Shown: positions 18,857 through 25,559 of the stretch, piece by piece
Numbering within the stretch: position 1 is the first letter of the stretch
Layout of the letters: each line of letters begins with the position of its first letter
The notes under the pieces: model-generated
Database searches by the model: none
Told to the model about the DNA's origin: nothing
Seen by the model: the letters and a program-made list of their open reading frames with translations, nothing else
Program-made: the position numbers and the translations under genes
Origin: Sphingobacteriaceae bacterium
GTDB taxonomy: Bacteria; Bacteroidota; Bacteroidia; B-17B0; Aurantibacillaceae
Length of the DNA stretch: 32,258 nucleotides
Direction of reading: 5' to 3'
Assembly: GCA_023251775.1 (NCBI GenBank)
Contig: JAHEYC010000040.1
Location: 1 to 32,258, forward strand

Positions 18857-21800
18857 TCATGCTTCATCTTTATTAAATTCCAAATAGAAAACAGTTCCTT
18901 TATTTTCCTCACTTTCAAACCAAATAGTTGCACCGATGGTATCAAAAATATTTTTGATCATGGCTAATCCCAATCCCGAACCCGTTGATTTGGTAGTGAA
19001 GTTAGGCGTGAAAATATTTTGTTTTAAATTTTCGGGTATGCCGCAACCGTTATCGGCAACCGTTACAACATAGCCTTTTCCGTTCTCCATTTCAGAAGTA
19101 CTTATCTCTATGTGAGCTTCTTTTACTTCCGAAGTTGCATGAAGCGCATTGGTAAGTAAATTATTGAAAACGCGCAGCATTTGTTCTTTGTCGGCATTAA
19201 CCGGAATTTCTTTTGCATGCAGATCGACCGAGATCTTCACTTGTTTTTCTTTTTCAAAAAGATCAACGGTAGAATTGATCACTTCCACCAAATTTATTTT
19301 TTCTAATTCACCGCTTGGTAATTTGGCGAAATTGCTGAACTCAGTGGCGATGTTTGCCAAGGTATCAATTTGCTCGATGATATTATTACTTGCTTTGGTA
19401 AAACGTTCTTCAAAATCTTTCGGGTCGTTCTTCATCACATGTTGCAAGTATTGCAAATTCAATTTCATTGGTGTTAAAGGATTTTTGATCTCGTGTGCAA
19501 CTTGTTTTGCCATTTCTCGCCACGCCGTTTCACGTTCGCTTTTTGCTAAGAGTCCTGCGCTCTTATCCAATTTTTCTATCATCGAATTATATTCGTCAAC
19601 CAGTTTTCCTACTTCATCTTCACTTTCCCAAACAATGGCTTCGTTCTGTTTTCCCAAGGCAACATTGGCCATTTGTTGTTTTAAGATCCGCAATGGTAAA
19701 GTAATATATCCCGAAAGAATTAAACCCGAAAGGATACTGATGATAAATAAAATAACATACACGTTGATGAGCGTACTGATGATGCCCGATAATTTATTAT
19801 TGAGCACACTTTGTTTTCCAAAATACGGCAAGTTCAAATAACCCATTAATTTTTTGTTGGCGTTATATATGGGTGCGTACAAGGATAAATAATCCAAATT
19901 TCCTGCTTTATCTTTGGATGTATAACTCGACATAAGGTCGTTCTTTAAATTCACCAGCGCTTTCGAATTAAGCAATGGTGCAGCTAATCCTAACTCGTAT
20001 AAGCGTGGCTGACTGCTAATATATAGCTGTCCCGAATTATCAAATATGCTTACATCACTTTTAAAGATCTGTGCATATTTTTTTATCGTTGCGTCTATCA
20101 ATTCTTTTGACACATCGGTGATCGTATCGCTGTTTTGCAATACGCCCGATAGATCGCTGAGGATGCTAATTGATTTTTCCTGCAATTGTTTTTCATTGTC
20201 CTTATCAAATTGATCGGATACCAATTTGCTGGACGTAATTCCAACCGCTGCAATTGACACTAATAACAATAGAATAACGGTGGTTTGAATACGACGCGTT
20301 AATGAGGTAGTGACCGTGCGTTCAGCAAAGAAAAGCGAATAAGCGATATAACTTAAATACGCGATCAGGGAGAACAATAAAAATAAATAAGAGTTATAGG
20401 TAAAGAAATAACTCAAATTTTTTGTCTTGGTAGAAATGATCACGGTGGAATTCTCATCCGGGTATAAATAATAATGGCGGTATTGCGGATCAACTTTACT
20501 TAAGGTAGCTGAATCGTTCAAATTCACGGGATAATTAAAATCGCCATTCATTTTATTGTTGATGCCCGAGCGATATACAACGCGACTGAGATTACGCAAT
20601 TTATCTAATTTTTGTTGTGAAGCATCAATAAGCAGATCGGGAAAAGCGCCCACTTCTTCAAAATATTTTGGCTCAAATAAAATGTACAATTTATTTTTTC
20701 CCAATTCAACGCGCGCAATGTATCGTGAATTATTTTTATACTGATCAATAAAGTATAAATGCGGACTCGATGTTTTTGTGGATTGATATCGTATTTGTTC
20801 TTCAAAAAATCCTTCATTGCGCAAAATAGGCTGTGTATTTTGAATAAGCGCTTTGCAATCCTCATCAAACATAGAGAATTCGATATTGTATCGGTCAAAG
20901 TATCCAAAAAAGAAATTCTGACGTAATAGTTGCAAGAATTCTTTATCGCCATTAACCCCAACAAATTGACTCAATACAAGCAGCGGATCATTTTTTTCGA
21001 TCTTATCCGAAAGGTTAAAGAATTCACTTTCCAAAACAGCATCTCGTCGATCGATGAGTTTATACGAAAGCACTTCAAAATCTTGTTGCTGATTTTTTGA
21101 GATATAAAAATTAAGAATGGCCGATGAGATCACGGCCATAAAAAGCAGTACACCGCCAACTGCTAAAATATTTTTTTCTAATTTAAGGTAGCCAATAAAT
21201 AGAACAATGATGCTTATGGGGAAGAACCACCATTTTTCCATCCAATAATTAGAAGGAAAAACAAAATTGAGTACAAGTGAAATAACTAATGTAATACCCA
21301 AGTAAAAAAGTGCCGAACGTAAATTTTGTTTCAACGAGTACTTAAATAAAATGTACAGTAACATAAGTGTAGAAATATTGACCAACACAATTGGCAAAAG
21401 CGCCACATAACTGTACCAATGCAGATTCAATAGATTTAAAAAGTCGAACGAAATGGTGGAATTGCTAATGATGCTATTAATAATATGATGATGAAAAAAG
21501 AGATTGGTAAAAAGTAAACCAATACTCAAGCCAACATAAATGATCTTGCCAATTTGTTTTTTAGAATTCTTGAGCCAATAATAACAAATGATACTTAACC
21601 AAATAAGTAAAATGGAATTTAAAATAAGATCACCCAAATACGTATTGAGATACGATTGTGCATTTCCAAAAAGAATAAGGTCGTACAGATCTCCTTGATA
21701 AAGATACCCAGGCCATTTATATTCGAGCATTACAAAACGAAGTATGAAAATGAGCACCACGTAGATCAAGCCCATTGGTGCAAATGGTTGGCGTTTTGTT

Positions 21801-22438
21801 TGAAGCAAAACAAAAAGTAAAAGAAGAATGCAAATTAAAAAGAATAAAATGGTGAGCGTACCAATTGTGCCTTGTGTTTTATAACTGATCTCACTCCCTG
21901 AAATAGAAAATAAAAGCGCATCGTTCAAGTTCACTTCACTTCCGGCGATCTTGCTTAATTTAAGATCAAGCCCTATTGGCAGATCCAACCAATCGGCAAA
22001 ATTATTCTCTAAAAAATCATTCTGAAGATCGTAACGTGTTTTTAAAATGCTTAATACAAGATAGATTGTATTACCTTGATCAATATGATGTGCCAAATAA
22101 TACCCATTTCGAAGTTTTACAAGTTGGGGTTTAAGTTCGGCAGTGAATTTAATAGGAATAGGAATTTGAGAATTGTTCCAATATGCTAATTTGTCGTTGG
22201 TAAAAACGTAAACGCCAATATCTCTAGTAGAATAAAGTTCCTGTAATTTTTCGGGATCCATGCCCCTTGCCAATTCGGCGGCAACTGTTAACTCATTGTA
22301 TTTTTCGCTCACCTTTAAAGAAGCCTGCTTAGAAAGTTCAGCAGAGGTTTTGGTGCCGTTGACATTAATATAAAAAGAGCTTAAAAAAAGGGCTATGACC
22401 AGGTAAAGCAAAAAATATTTGTTTCTAAGCAGCTTCAT
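18857..22438 (-). CDS. Giant membrane sensor histidine kinase (NtrY-like catalytic core)
   Basis: The 1193-residue sensor kinase has a first membrane helix at 8-25, a cluster of hydrophobic helices (about 190-450), a further extracytoplasmic sensor region and helices near 690-750 and 890-915, a HAMP linker (about 905-960), then the kinase core. The phosphorylated histidine is His982 in AHEIKNPLTPMKLNLQYL. The ATPase domain shows NNLLTNALHA (about 1092-1101), DNGCGIP (about 1129) and GSGLGLAMIK (about 1152-1161). The core resembles NtrY-type kinases. The start is ATG 22438; a TTG lies directly before it. No response regulator is adjacent, so the partner is unknown. Most kinases are 400-700 residues; the large membrane part here is unusual. 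The signal sensed cannot be predicted. Confidence 0.9.
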   Translation of the reverse strand: MKLLRNKYFLLYLVIALFLSSFYINVNGTKTSAELSKQASLKVSEKYNELTVAAELARGMDPEKLQELYSTRDIGVYVFTNDKLAYWNNSQIPIPIKFTAELKPQLVKLRNGYYLAHHIDQGNTIYLVLSILKTRYDLQNDFLENNFADWLDLPIGLDLKLSKIAGSEVNLNDALLFSISGSEISYKTQGTIGTLTILFFLICILLLLFVLLQTKRQPFAPMGLIYVVLIFILRFVMLEYKWPGYLYQGDLYDLILFGNAQSYLNTYLGDLILNSILLIWLSIICYYWLKNSKKQIGKIIYVGLSIGLLFTNLFFHHHIINSIISNSTISFDFLNLLNLHWYSYVALLPIVLVNISTLMLLYILFKYSLKQNLRSALFYLGITLVISLVLNFVFPSNYWMEKWWFFPISIIVLFIGYLKLEKNILAVGGVLLFMAVISSAILNFYISKNQQQDFEVLSYKLIDRRDAVLESEFFNLSDKIEKNDPLLVLSQFVGVNGDKEFLQLLRQNFFFGYFDRYNIEFSMFDEDCKALIQNTQPILRNEGFFEEQIRYQSTKTSSPHLYFIDQYKNNSRYIARVELGKNKLYILFEPKYFEEVGAFPDLLIDASQQKLDKLRNLSRVVYRSGINNKMNGDFNYPVNLNDSATLSKVDPQYRHYYLYPDENSTVIISTKTKNLSYFFTYNSYLFLLFSLIAYLSYIAYSLFFAERTVTTSLTRRIQTTVILLLLVSIAAVGITSSKLVSDQFDKDNEKQLQEKSISILSDLSGVLQNSDTITDVSKELIDATIKKYAQIFKSDVSIFDNSGQLYISSQPRLYELGLAAPLLNSKALVNLKNDLMSSYTSKDKAGNLDYLSLYAPIYNANKKLMGYLNLPYFGKQSVLNNKLSGIISTLINVYVILFIISILSGLILSGYITLPLRILKQQMANVALGKQNEAIVWESEDEVGKLVDEYNSMIEKLDKSAGLLAKSERETAWREMAKQVAHEIKNPLTPMKLNLQYLQHVMKNDPKDFEERFTKASNNIIEQIDTLANIATEFSNFAKLPSGELEKINLVEVINSTVDLFEKEKQVKISVDLHAKEIPVNADKEQMLRVFNNLLTNALHATSEVKEAHIEISTSEMENGKGYVVTVADNGCGIPENLKQNIFTPNFTTKSTGSGLGLAMIKNIFDTIGATIWFESEENKGTVFYLEFNKDEA

Positions 22439-22589
22439 CAATAGTATTAGTAGTACAAATTAACAATATTTCCTTGTAAAAGCCATATTTCAGGGAAGTT
22501 TTGGGGGTTTGGAGTGAATAGGCTGCTTAAGGGGCTTTTTTTAGCAGAAATATTTTTTAAATAAGGTTAAACACTTACCTATTTCCCAT

Positions 22590-22597
22590 TATTTTTG
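22590..22597 (+). promoter_or_regulatory. -7 box of the TMTC-like/pfkB operon
   Basis: TATTTTTG matches TAnnTTTG, with TTA 20 nt upstream at the -33 position. Transcription would start about 14 nt before ATG 22616, which argues against the in-frame TTG at 22595 as the start. Confidence 0.5.
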
Positions 22598-22615
22598 TAT
22601 TTTCAGCTTTTAATT

Positions 22616-25159
22616 ATGGCACGCGAAACTAAAACAACAGCAAAGCAACCCAGTCTACCTGAGTTGACCACAAAATTCACCTATTTCCCATTCCTTAACC
22701 AAAAGTTAGCCGCTATTCTTATAGGTATTATTGGCTTTACGTTCTACATCACTTCTATCAATGGTGAGTATGCGTTGGATGATGGAATTATCATTCACCA
22801 AAATGATCACGTATTAAAGGGATTCAGGGGTATTCCTGATATTTTGACCAAAGATGCTTACGAAAGTTTTTATCGCCGCATGTGTGCAACCGATCAATTA
22901 GCCGGTGGTCGTTACCGTCCATTATCTGTTGTAAGTTTTGCAGTTGAGCAACAATTTTTGGGTGCGTACAGAAGCGGATTGTACATGCAAGTACGAGATC
23001 TTAACCAAAATAATATTTTAGATGATAAACCTGTACCCCACACATCTGATTGTGGGCGGCCGGAGGTGAATTATGAATTCAACGATTACGTTGATGTGAA
23101 TAATGATGGGGTTGTGCAAGGTAACGAGTGTTACAGTTGTTGGGACTTGAATAAGAATTTTAAGAATGAGTTTGATGAGGACCTTAATGTCGATGGGATC
23201 TTTAATGAAGTAGACTGTCAGGTGTATAGCGCCAAGGTTCGTCACTTTAATAATATTTGGACATTCGCCTTGGGTTGTGTGTTCTTGTATCTAGTATTTG
23301 CAAAATGTTTCTTCCGCAAAAATCCGGATCTTGCATTCTTAGCAGCTTTATTATTTACCATGCATCCTATACACTCGGAAGCAATTGCCAATGTAAAAAG
23401 TCGCGACGAGATATTTTCGTTGATATTCGTCTCGCTCACCTTCCTCTATTCGTTTAAATATATAGAAACAAAGACCTGGAAGGATCTGTTCTGGGCAAGT
23501 TTCATGTTCTTGTTGGCCGTACTTTCAAAAGAGTATGCAGTATTCCTCTTGTTCCTATTGCCATTAGCGGTTTACACATTTACTGAAAATGATATTGATG
23601 TAGGAAAATATCTTAATAAAGATGAGTTCTTAAAACTTTTGAAGACAAAAGAAATGAAGAACGTTCTTATTGTTGGTGGTTTATTTGTGATCGCTGCATT
23701 TTTGATGTTGTACATGAAACGTGATTTTGACATGCACGCAAAACCGGGCGCAAAACCTATCAAATCATTTTGGTTATGGCCATTTGTGTATTTGATACTT
23801 GGCGTTTTTGTAATTGGGCGCACAAATAAATTAAAGAATTTCCATACGTTAATGAGTTGGTTGTATTTTGTGATGTTGGTTTATCTCGCTATGCGTTTAA
23901 TGGCTGTAAAATTAAAACCGGGAGTTCCTGATACAGAGATCTTGAACAATCCATACTTGTTAGCAAATGGCGAAGAACGTTTTGCAACAAAAGGATATGT
24001 GCTTTTAAAATATCTGCAATTATTAATTTTCCCTCATCCATTATCGTCCGATTATTCGTTCCAAACAATTCCTTATCGTCATTTTACCGATTGGGATTTC
24101 TTATTATCTATTGTACTTCATGTGGGAATGTTGATAGGCGCTGTTTATTATACAATTAAAAAACACGTTTTAGGTTTCGCTATCATGACCTATATCATTT
24201 TCGCATTAATGATCGGCAACGTATTAATGGATATTGGTGCCACCATGGGCGAACGTTTGATATTTCACTCGTCCATTGGTTTCTGTATAGGAATGGCTTA
24301 TGTTATTTTGAAAGGATTTGATAAACTCGCAAGCATTCAATTGAATTTACGTCGCTCGGTATTAATTAGTTTTGTATTAGTGGTAGGATTCCTTTTCGGA
24401 TGCAAAACATGGGAGCGTAATTGGGATTGGAAAAACGACGTGACCTTATTTTTGAAAGATGTAAAAACAATGCCACACTCGGTATTAGTATTAGGAAATG
24501 CCGGCGCACGTTGGGTTGATTTGGCCGATACAAAAGAGGTTACCGGAATACAAGTGGTAGGACAGGATTCAACAAAATTCAATGATTATAACGGAACATT
24601 GGTTGTAACCGATGAAGAAGTAAAACAAGGTGGCTATAAAGATAAACGTGAAGCGGCTTTATATAAAGGTATTGCTTTCTTAAAACACGCTATTGAATTA
24701 CATCCGCGTTACGTAAATGGGTATTTGAATTTAGGTTTAGCATACTTTAAATTGCGTAAGGATTTTGAAGCGCTTTACTATTGGAAAAATGCTGAGCGTT
24801 TATATCCGAACAATCCGTATTTAAGGAATTATTATCAAGTATATAGTAATGATCTTAAAAATAGAGGGATCATGGCGTTCAACAGAGGACATATGGATAC
24901 GGCGGCCATTGAGTATAACAAGTGGACGATCTTAGAACCAAATAATCCTGAAGCTTGGTATAATTTGGGAGGCGCTTTCTTTAATACGCGAAAATATTTT
25001 CAAGCCAAACAAGCTTGGGAAAGAACGCTCCAATTAAATCCGGCGCATGCACAAGCAAAACAAAATTTACCAATGGCCAATCAAATAGTGAATCAAATGA
25101 TGATGGCTACTCAACAAGCAACACAACAAGCTCAGGCGCAACCTATAAATTTGAAATAG
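22616..25159 (+). CDS. TMTC-like GT-C membrane protein with TPR tail and an EF-hand-like insertion
   Basis: The 847-residue membrane protein has the layout of TMTC/GT-C glycosyltransferases with TPRs. The first helix (about 32-50) is followed by GEYALDDGIII with the acidic DD pair, GGRYRPLSVVSFAVEQQFLG, a row of membrane helices including LAALLFTMHPIHSEAIANVKSRDE (about 240-262), and a C-terminal part with TPRs (HPRYVNGYLNLGLAYFKL, NPEAWYNLGGAFFNTRKY). Between FLGAY and VRHFNN, where TMTC proteins normally continue directly, lies an insertion (about 117-205) with four calcium-loop-like segments and four cysteines. The tail is Gln-rich. A lipid-linked sugar donor and protein acceptor are likely by family, but unproven. 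It leads a four-gene operon. Confidence 0.8.
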   Translation: MARETKTTAKQPSLPELTTKFTYFPFLNQKLAAILIGIIGFTFYITSINGEYALDDGIIIHQNDHVLKGFRGIPDILTKDAYESFYRRMCATDQLAGGRYRPLSVVSFAVEQQFLGAYRSGLYMQVRDLNQNNILDDKPVPHTSDCGRPEVNYEFNDYVDVNNDGVVQGNECYSCWDLNKNFKNEFDEDLNVDGIFNEVDCQVYSAKVRHFNNIWTFALGCVFLYLVFAKCFFRKNPDLAFLAALLFTMHPIHSEAIANVKSRDEIFSLIFVSLTFLYSFKYIETKTWKDLFWASFMFLLAVLSKEYAVFLLFLLPLAVYTFTENDIDVGKYLNKDEFLKLLKTKEMKNVLIVGGLFVIAAFLMLYMKRDFDMHAKPGAKPIKSFWLWPFVYLILGVFVIGRTNKLKNFHTLMSWLYFVMLVYLAMRLMAVKLKPGVPDTEILNNPYLLANGEERFATKGYVLLKYLQLLIFPHPLSSDYSFQTIPYRHFTDWDFLLSIVLHVGMLIGAVYYTIKKHVLGFAIMTYIIFALMIGNVLMDIGATMGERLIFHSSIGFCIGMAYVILKGFDKLASIQLNLRRSVLISFVLVVGFLFGCKTWERNWDWKNDVTLFLKDVKTMPHSVLVLGNAGARWVDLADTKEVTGIQVVGQDSTKFNDYNGTLVVTDEEVKQGGYKDKREAALYKGIAFLKHAIELHPRYVNGYLNLGLAYFKLRKDFEALYYWKNAERLYPNNPYLRNYYQVYSNDLKNRGIMAFNRGHMDTAAIEYNKWTILEPNNPEAWYNLGGAFFNTRKYFQAKQAWERTLQLNPAHAQAKQNLPMANQIVNQMMMATQQATQQAQAQPINLK

Positions 25160-25163
25160 AGAT

Positions 25164-25559
25164 ATGAGAAAAGTTTTCTTTGGATCTTTTTTAGCCATGT
25201 GTTTTTTTGCAAGCGCGCAAAATCCACAAATGATCAATACATTAGAAATTGAACCGGGAAGTACCGGATTAACCAGCAAAAATCTATTCAACGATAGTTT
25301 ATGCAGCAGTTTTTGCTTGATCATTAAAAATGAGGTAAAAGGACACAAGCACATGAAGCATAGTGAACATGTGATCGTTCAAAGTGGAGAAGCGGTGATG
25401 CGTTTAGGCGAAAAAGAATTTACGATTAAAGAAGGCGATGTTATTTTTATTCCAAAAGGAACTGTGCATTCGGTTATTGTAAAAGGTAAAAAACCTTTGA
25501 AGGTATTAAGCATTCAATCGCCTTATTTCAATGGCGATGACCGTGTGATGGTGGAATAA
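25164..25559 (+). CDS. Exported cupin-domain protein
   Basis: The 131-residue protein has a signal peptide (MRKVFFGSFLAMCFFASAQ) and one small cupin barrel. The metal-binding motif is visible as GHKHMKHSEHVIVQSGEAVM (cupin motif 1 with three His) and GDVIFIPKGTVHSV (motif 2 with His). It may bind a metal and a small ligand in the periplasm or be an enzyme; substrate unknown. It begins 4 nt after the TMTC-like gene and its TAA directly precedes the pfkB ATG, so it is embedded in the operon. Confidence 0.85.
   Translation: MRKVFFGSFLAMCFFASAQNPQMINTLEIEPGSTGLTSKNLFNDSLCSSFCLIIKNEVKGHKHMKHSEHVIVQSGEAVMRLGEKEFTIKEGDVIFIPKGTVHSVIVKGKKPLKVLSIQSPYFNGDDRVMVE

Follow-up and report, generated by a model that had tools for sequence, protein, structure and literature searches.

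A lineage-specific insertion with predicted calcium-binding loops in the first outer loop of a TMTC-like GT-C protein, and the recurrence of its 27-residue core in other exported-looking proteins of Bacteroidia

In the GT-C/TMTC fold, the outer loops EL1, EL2 and EL4 form the acceptor region (PMC7801869, in the part of the paper available). PMTs carry a luminal accessory domain, termed MIR (PMC7759382, available portion). In EmbB, a GT-C arabinosyltransferase, a calcium ion is tightly bound between TM2, JM1 and a strand, and the authors ascribe a structural role to it (PMC7341804, likewise a partial text). At the level of short motifs, Dx[DN]xDG loops constitute a known calcium-binding scheme that is found across many families (PMC3123361, partial text). 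Described here is a GT-C protein with loops of this type in EL1, the first outer loop.

The window, i.e. the whole stretch of DNA analysed, consists of 32,258 nucleotides of contig JAHEYC010000040.1 from a Sphingobacteriaceae bacterium. The gene is listed as an open reading frame of 854 amino acids that extends from a TTG at 22595 to 25159 on the forward strand. The ATG at 22616 is the more likely start, because the family consensus begins MAKQ; residue numbers of loops and cysteines are counted from the TTG. The protein matches the Pfam families PMT_2 (29.7 bits, cut-off 26.1) and TPR_2 (46 bits) in addition to TMTC_DUF1736 (Table 1), and NCBIfam models of the TPR region match the whole protein below the cut-off. 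Equivalents of most human TMTC luminal motifs are present (LDDG, GGRYRPL, SRDE, SKEY, SSDYS and GERLIFH); in a comparison that covered M1–M5 and M7, motifs M2, M3 and M5 deviate from the human TMTC form. An AlphaFold2 model, made from 49 sequences (the window and genome contig loci), has a mean pLDDT of 81.9 and a pTM of 0.79. Its best structural match is Pmt1-Pmt2 (Z 17.0, 364 aligned, rmsd 5.0), and further GT-C matches are Pmt4 (Z 16.9) and STT3 (Z about 16); Foldseek alone with the full model lists TPR proteins. The membrane domain as modelled has the GT-C fold, and the host protein is a TMTC-like GT-C enzyme. It is a putative glycosyltransferase, and may or may not share the protein O-mannosyltransferase activity of the TMTC family. 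In many close homologues the alignment is split in two around GT-C residues ∼341–350 and the open frames are about 900–940 amino acids long, which suggests a second variable insertion in that loop.

Both neighbouring genes were compared by tblastn with 50 related loci, many of which are too short to hold either one. The kinase finds a match in 33 loci, often at 25–40 percent identity, a level so low that the matches perhaps represent only common kinase domains; the cupin finds a match in 17.

Table 1. Positions of the GT-C gene, its insertion and the adjacent genes in the window
Feature	Positions	Strand	Basis
Sensor histidine kinase, 1194 aa, divergent upstream	18857-22441	-	
TMTC-like GT-C protein, predicted glycosyltransferase, 847 aa from ATG	22616..25159	+	Pfam, fold model
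Asp-Asp pair (D62-D63) in EL1, corresponding to TMTC motif M1	22778..22783	+	motif from PMC7801869
C97, found exactly in tree rows having C153; possible staple	22883..22885	+	
GRYRPL segment in EL1, belonging to TMTC motif M2	22907..22924	+	motif from PMC7801869
EL1 insertion, long form	22964..23230	+	homologue alignment
Loop 1, DLNQNNILD	22997..23023	+	sequence, row conservation
C153, co-occurs with C97	23051..23053	+	
Loop 2, DVNNDGVVQGNE, followed by C179	23093..23128	+	sequence, row conservation
C179	23129..23131	+	
27-residue module, C182-W-[loop 3]-[loop 4]-C208	23138..23218	+	sequence, profile searches
Loop 3, DLNKNFKNEFDE	23144..23179	+	sequence, row conservation
Loop 4, DLNVDGIFNEVD	23180..23215	+	sequence, row conservation
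TMTC_DUF1736 match, EL4, 28.8 bits (cut-off 27)	23945..24124	+	Pfam
Best TPR_2 match, C-terminal TPR region	24947..25048	+	Pfam
Cupin, mannose-6-phosphate-isomerase-like, directly downstream	25164-25559	+	

The insertion is in frame with the gene and reads AYRSGLYMQVRDLNQ...DCQVYS. A sequence-only reading had placed four D-x-N-x-[DN]-type loops and four cysteines here, in an insertion between the RYRPL segment and the next membrane helix of a TMTC-like protein, and all of this is confirmed. About 87 extra residues lie between RYRPL and TM2 in the first outer loop; the long form has 93 residues between flanking columns, compared with 6 in most insert-free homologues. The four loops begin at residues 135, 167, 184 and 196, and the cysteines are C153, C179, C182 and C208. 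Loops 3 and 4 follow each other head to tail, as two 12-residue loops within a C-W...D-C frame. The D-x-N-x-[DN] sites of the 854-residue protein are those of the four insertion loops only. When the whole protein was shuffled, none of 20,000 shuffles gave four sites within 90 residues and 3 gave three; of 20,000 shuffles restricted to the D/N-rich segment, 7 gave four. We regard conservation as stronger evidence for the loops than the shuffle test.

The insert is lineage-specific: among the GT-C proteins examined, it is found in families f1 and f6. Alignment with 12 homologues that come from other families within the class shows that the connection from the second juxtamembrane helix of EL1 (JM2) to TM2 is ∼6 residues in eight and 15 residues in one. 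Two others (L084, L085) carry unrelated inserts of ∼50 residues in this place; these have no calcium loops, and the EL1 site thus seems to tolerate different arms. The remaining homologue (L081, of family f6) carries a two-loop form of the module. It is very improbable that the segment is an ordinary part of the TMTC/GT-C fold. Close homologues do share it, and 36 of the 40 genomes of the genus have the module, but the homologues with a short connection contradict such a reading, and the loops are the most conserved part of the insert, their residues being near-invariant and not poorly conserved. Of the four genus genomes in which the module was not seen, two are incomplete (G005 and G031, 73 percent), and in the other two (G027 and G004) the best match is a partial gene only. 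Several genus genomes, e.g. G001, G010, G017 and G030, have two module-bearing GT-C paralogues (L093–L096).

Module-bearing GT-C proteins display either a two-loop insert of 45–53 residues or a four-loop insert of 85–117 residues. The window protein is of the long form, with two additional loops and a pair of co-occurring cysteines; the two-loop form is found in 29 of the 73 module-bearing rows of the tree. The tree has 84 rows and was made by a quick method with the insert columns removed. A branch with an SH-aLRT of 91 (95 being firm) separates the 73 module-bearing proteins from the rest, and the method warned of long outgroup branches. Long and short forms require three changes each on the tree. 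One gain before the f1/f6 split would fit these data, with the outer loop pair either added or lost later; the tree is compatible with both. Twelve family rows were removed beforehand, five as partial (L022, L029, L056, L059, L064) and seven by eye as near copies (L011, L012, L020, L027, L065, L099, L100). L133 was removed as it is the same place as L081; L079 and L080 fall below the 600-amino-acid limit, and L060 and L029 are one protein. Some of the counted rows represent one gene taken from two collections (L038/L136 and L023/L134, branch length 0), and therefore the 70 deposits of module-bearing rows are not independent observations. The exact 27-residue C-W-12-12-C pattern is found in 70 of the 84 rows; 11 of the remaining 14 are without the module, and L057, L058 and L072 differ in length.

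The Dx[DN]xDG ligand pattern is conserved across the insertion loops. In loop 4, D1, N3, D5, N9 and D12 are each kept in 73 of 73 rows, and E12 of loop 3 is kept in 72 of 73. The long rows, counted without L058 and L072, retain E12 of loop 2 and D1, N3, N5 and D9 of loop 1 in every case (42/42). The mean share of the commonest residue at ligand positions 1, 3, 5 and 12, as opposed to the interleaved positions 2, 4, 7, 10 and 11, is 0.93 versus 0.50 in loop 2, 0.95 versus 0.51 in loop 3 and 1.00 versus 0.66 in loop 4. Loop 1 shows 0.82 versus 0.51, the lower ligand value being due to a non-acid at its position 12. Glycine is at position 6 in 39/42 rows for loop 1, 32/42 for loop 2 and 72/73 for loop 4, whereas phenylalanine is the commonest residue there in loop 3. 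In some members a loop has decayed, as loop 3 has in L057 and loop 2 in L098. The sequence-only reading likened loops of the insertion to those of EF-hands. Of these, DLNVDGIFNEVD is EF-like but departs from the canonical loop, its position 8 being Phe and its position 12 Asp. Loop 1, given as DLNQNNILDD, lacks the acid at position 12, with an invariant D9 instead, and belongs to the shorter DxNxNGxLD type.

Perhaps these are disulfide-closed Asp/Asn-rich loops that serve in folding only, with another divalent ion or with no calcium in vivo. The frequent asparagines at ligand positions could be read in this way, and manganese occupied a Dx[DN]xDG site in one crystal (PMC3123361, available part). 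Such an explanation is quite unlikely, as positions 1, 3, 5 and 12 (9 in loop 1) are kept like calcium ligands while the spacers drift, and the same source describes calcium binding by this motif in many families.

C182 is found in 77 of the 89 aligned rows, and all 77 also have C208. Of the tree rows, 28 have C97 or C153, and each of these has both; the two cysteines are concordant in 73/73 rows. Each changes once on the tree; their co-occurrence amounts to one event and hence to weak evidence for a bond, and a C97–C153 bond is possible. For C179 no partner cysteine is evident in the 89 aligned rows.

In the full model, the insert has pLDDT values of 61–88 by blocks, the 27-residue core being lowest (61–75); when folded alone, it has a mean pLDDT of 71 and a pTM of 0.54. 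The loops of the full model are in coil, and no helix of at least four residues is predicted after JM2 as far as loop 4 extends. The model of the insert alone has short helices at residues 193–196 and 204–210, the ends of loops 3 and 4. Confidence is moderate in both cases. In both models, residues L142 and V174, which occupy position 8 in loops 1 and 2, are predicted as isolated bridge residues. A PDB fold search with the insert alone gave a best Foldseek E of 2.5, and none of 58 chains had a Z of 2 or more. A canonical EF-hand domain is not supported, in that the 107-amino-acid region has no match to the Pfam EF-hand at E up to 1 and the full model shows no flanking helices, though the insert folded alone has the short ones just mentioned.

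The core of the insertion is not limited to GT-C proteins. A profile built from 12 GT-C copies only was run on 395 genomes of the class, and 47 were matched at E up to 0.001. Fourteen of these belong to the window's family and six to family f6. In all 20, the locus that was read encodes a GT-C protein, as judged by its RYRP segment; one of these loci is the window itself. In the other 27 matched Bacteroidia genomes, with at least one locus read in each, no GT-C protein is among the loci read. These non-GT-C proteins reach an E of 1.4e-12 per genome with the GT-C profile. In 22 of the 27 genomes, the module is in collagen-like proteins that contain five or more consecutive G-x-x triplets. In three, it is inside lipoproteins (L142 and L151, both DUF6340 by Pfam; L162, by likeness only), and in two (G398, G405) it is in exported-looking proteins that have no G-x-x runs. 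Export was judged by eye from the N-termini. The collagen-like rows are L139–L141, L143–L145, L147, L149, L152, L154–L161 and L163–L169, and one of these proteins (L167) has the module up to seven times.

Among the 494 frames of the window, a reverse profile made from 54 unique non-GT-C copies singles out the GT-C protein (E 4.4e-9), all other frames scoring no better than E 3. Comparison of the two profiles, GT-C versus other copies, gives 99.2 percent, a figure that is partly circular because the copies were chosen by the first profile; the per-genome E-values are not circular. The best identity of a non-GT-C module to a GT-C copy is 20/27, and to the window copy 16/27. A DNA pattern for CWDxNxNGxxD gave 16 stretches in viral contigs. 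Most are in open frames with C-W-D-x-N-x-N-G, and many adjoin collagen-like repeats; five (L102, L103, L109, L110, L112) have the first loop only. L111 proved to be an unrelated frame, and L115 matched by chance. A tblastn search of phages and plasmids with a 29-mer found no match, and the 29-mer is probably too short for such collections, given that related modules do occur in viral contigs. A scan of the phylum gave weak partial matches in 3 of 395 genomes besides the window. Pfam has no family that matches the 29-mer (E up to 10) or the 107-amino-acid region (E up to 1), and a control search of all PDB sequences with the module returned single dockerin loops only (best E 0.037).

These data suggest that the core is a portable 27-residue module that consists of Cys-Trp, two abutting 12-residue loops and Cys. 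Homology and strong convergence are not fully separable at a length of 27 residues; the tryptophan, the two cysteines and their exact spacing speak for a shared module. The sequence-only reading did not mention the recurrence of this core in unrelated exported-looking proteins, the short, long and empty versions of the insert or the C-W...D-C frame. What it proposed holds in part: the segment is lineage-specific, is located in EL1 and has loops of predicted calcium type, whereas actual calcium binding and the suggested use in acceptor binding or regulation are conjectural.

It seems moderately probable that the insertion forms an extracytoplasmic arm, locked by disulfides and by a metal predicted to be calcium, which lies at the acceptor cavity rim and has a mainly structural role. 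The arm would sit between JM2 and TM2. A C182–C208 disulfide would close the two tandem loops into a clasp, and the loops would offer side chains at positions 1, 3, 5 and 12 (9 in loop 1) to calcium. In the long form there is a second loop pair, and a C97–C153 bond perhaps anchors the arm to the catalytic loop. The disulfides and bound calcium probably hold the arm rigid at the cavity rim, and a rigid arm would act mainly as a structural cap or spacer and not as a sensor. The exported appearance of the other host proteins agrees with an extracytoplasmic EL1, and the unrelated inserts of L084 and L085 are what a site open to different arms would be expected to show. A structural calcium near TM2 and JM1 has a precedent in EmbB.

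This raises the question of whether calcium also gates the enzyme, i.e. whether occupancy of the loops opens or closes the acceptor cavity so that glycosylation follows extracytoplasmic calcium. In the sequence, the four loops lie near the DD and RYRPL segments, and the predicted bridge residues at position 8 would, if they pair, resemble those of paired EF-hands. Gating is nevertheless unlikely, in that a stabilising role is simpler for the same module in collagen-like proteins and lipoproteins, and relatives with two loops or no insert retain the enzyme or exist without the arm. Also doubtful is a broader proposal, that a portable module of exported Bacteroidia proteins was inserted and then doubled, making glycosyl transfer calcium-dependent.

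Another role for the arm may be docking, where it would bind a protein or glycan substrate, perhaps proteins with the same module. The location in EL1 (PMC7801869, partial text) is suited to this, and the module is present in exported-looking proteins, one of which, an S74-type surface protein (L119), is from the same genus. The probability of docking is low, however: of the 54 module matches in the genus, 48 are at GT-C places, five are in three further genomes and only the surface protein is seen as non-GT-C, and the window's own genome has one copy, in the GT-C protein. As a main reading, the notion that the module marks substrates was rejected, module-bearing non-GT-C proteins being rare in the genus.

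If calcium holds or moves an arm on the acceptor side of a GT-C enzyme, one could test directly whether a protein glycosylation step depends on calcium, and homologues with no insert, two loops and four loops provide a natural comparison series. The 27-residue clasp has a sharp signature and no Pfam match here, and annotation of it would be possible in Bacteroidia, in enzymes as well as in collagen-like proteins and lipoproteins.

Literature searches found no calcium-loop module in EL1 of a TMTC-like enzyme, no match to the motif string of the module and none to a disulfide calcium-binding module of Bacteroidetes collagen-like proteins. A search on calcium in GT-C enzymes led to EmbB, one for DUF1736 with tetratricopeptide in bacteria returned the human TMTC paper only, and the available portion of a work on Bacteroidota O-glycosylation (PMC10897501) names no enzyme like the window protein. 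Calcium loops and GT-C enzymes are each already known; their combination in EL1 was not found in these searches and appears to be new. Thrombospondin type 3 repeats are Asp-rich tandem calcium loops with cysteines. The Pfam model for them does not match the 29-mer or the 107-amino-acid region, such short models being insensitive, and the dockerin model also matches neither.

Human TMTC1–4, of the GT-C/PMT clan, share with the window protein the GT-C domain, the DD of EL1, YRPL, the KE and ER motifs, DUF1736 and C-terminal TPRs. They differ in M2 (SHKSYRP, compared with AGGRYRP in the window protein) and in M5 (Asp-Trp, compared with Asp-Tyr), and it is the window protein that has the calcium-loop module in EL1. 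Pmt1-Pmt2 and Pmt4 are the closest solved GT-C structures by Z; the MIR domain of PMTs is a beta-trefoil, whereas the EL1 module is small and made of predicted calcium loops. EmbB has one calcium site in a pocket, in contrast to the predicted sites of an inserted loop module. Collagen-like and DUF6340 proteins of Bacteroidia have the same 27-residue module in unrelated, non-GT-C hosts. With the Dx[DN]xDG loops of EF-hands, dockerins and the calcium blade, the window protein shares D1, [DN]3, [DN]5, often G6 and an acid at 12 or 9, but differs in having two abutting 12-residue loops within a Cys-Trp...Cys frame.
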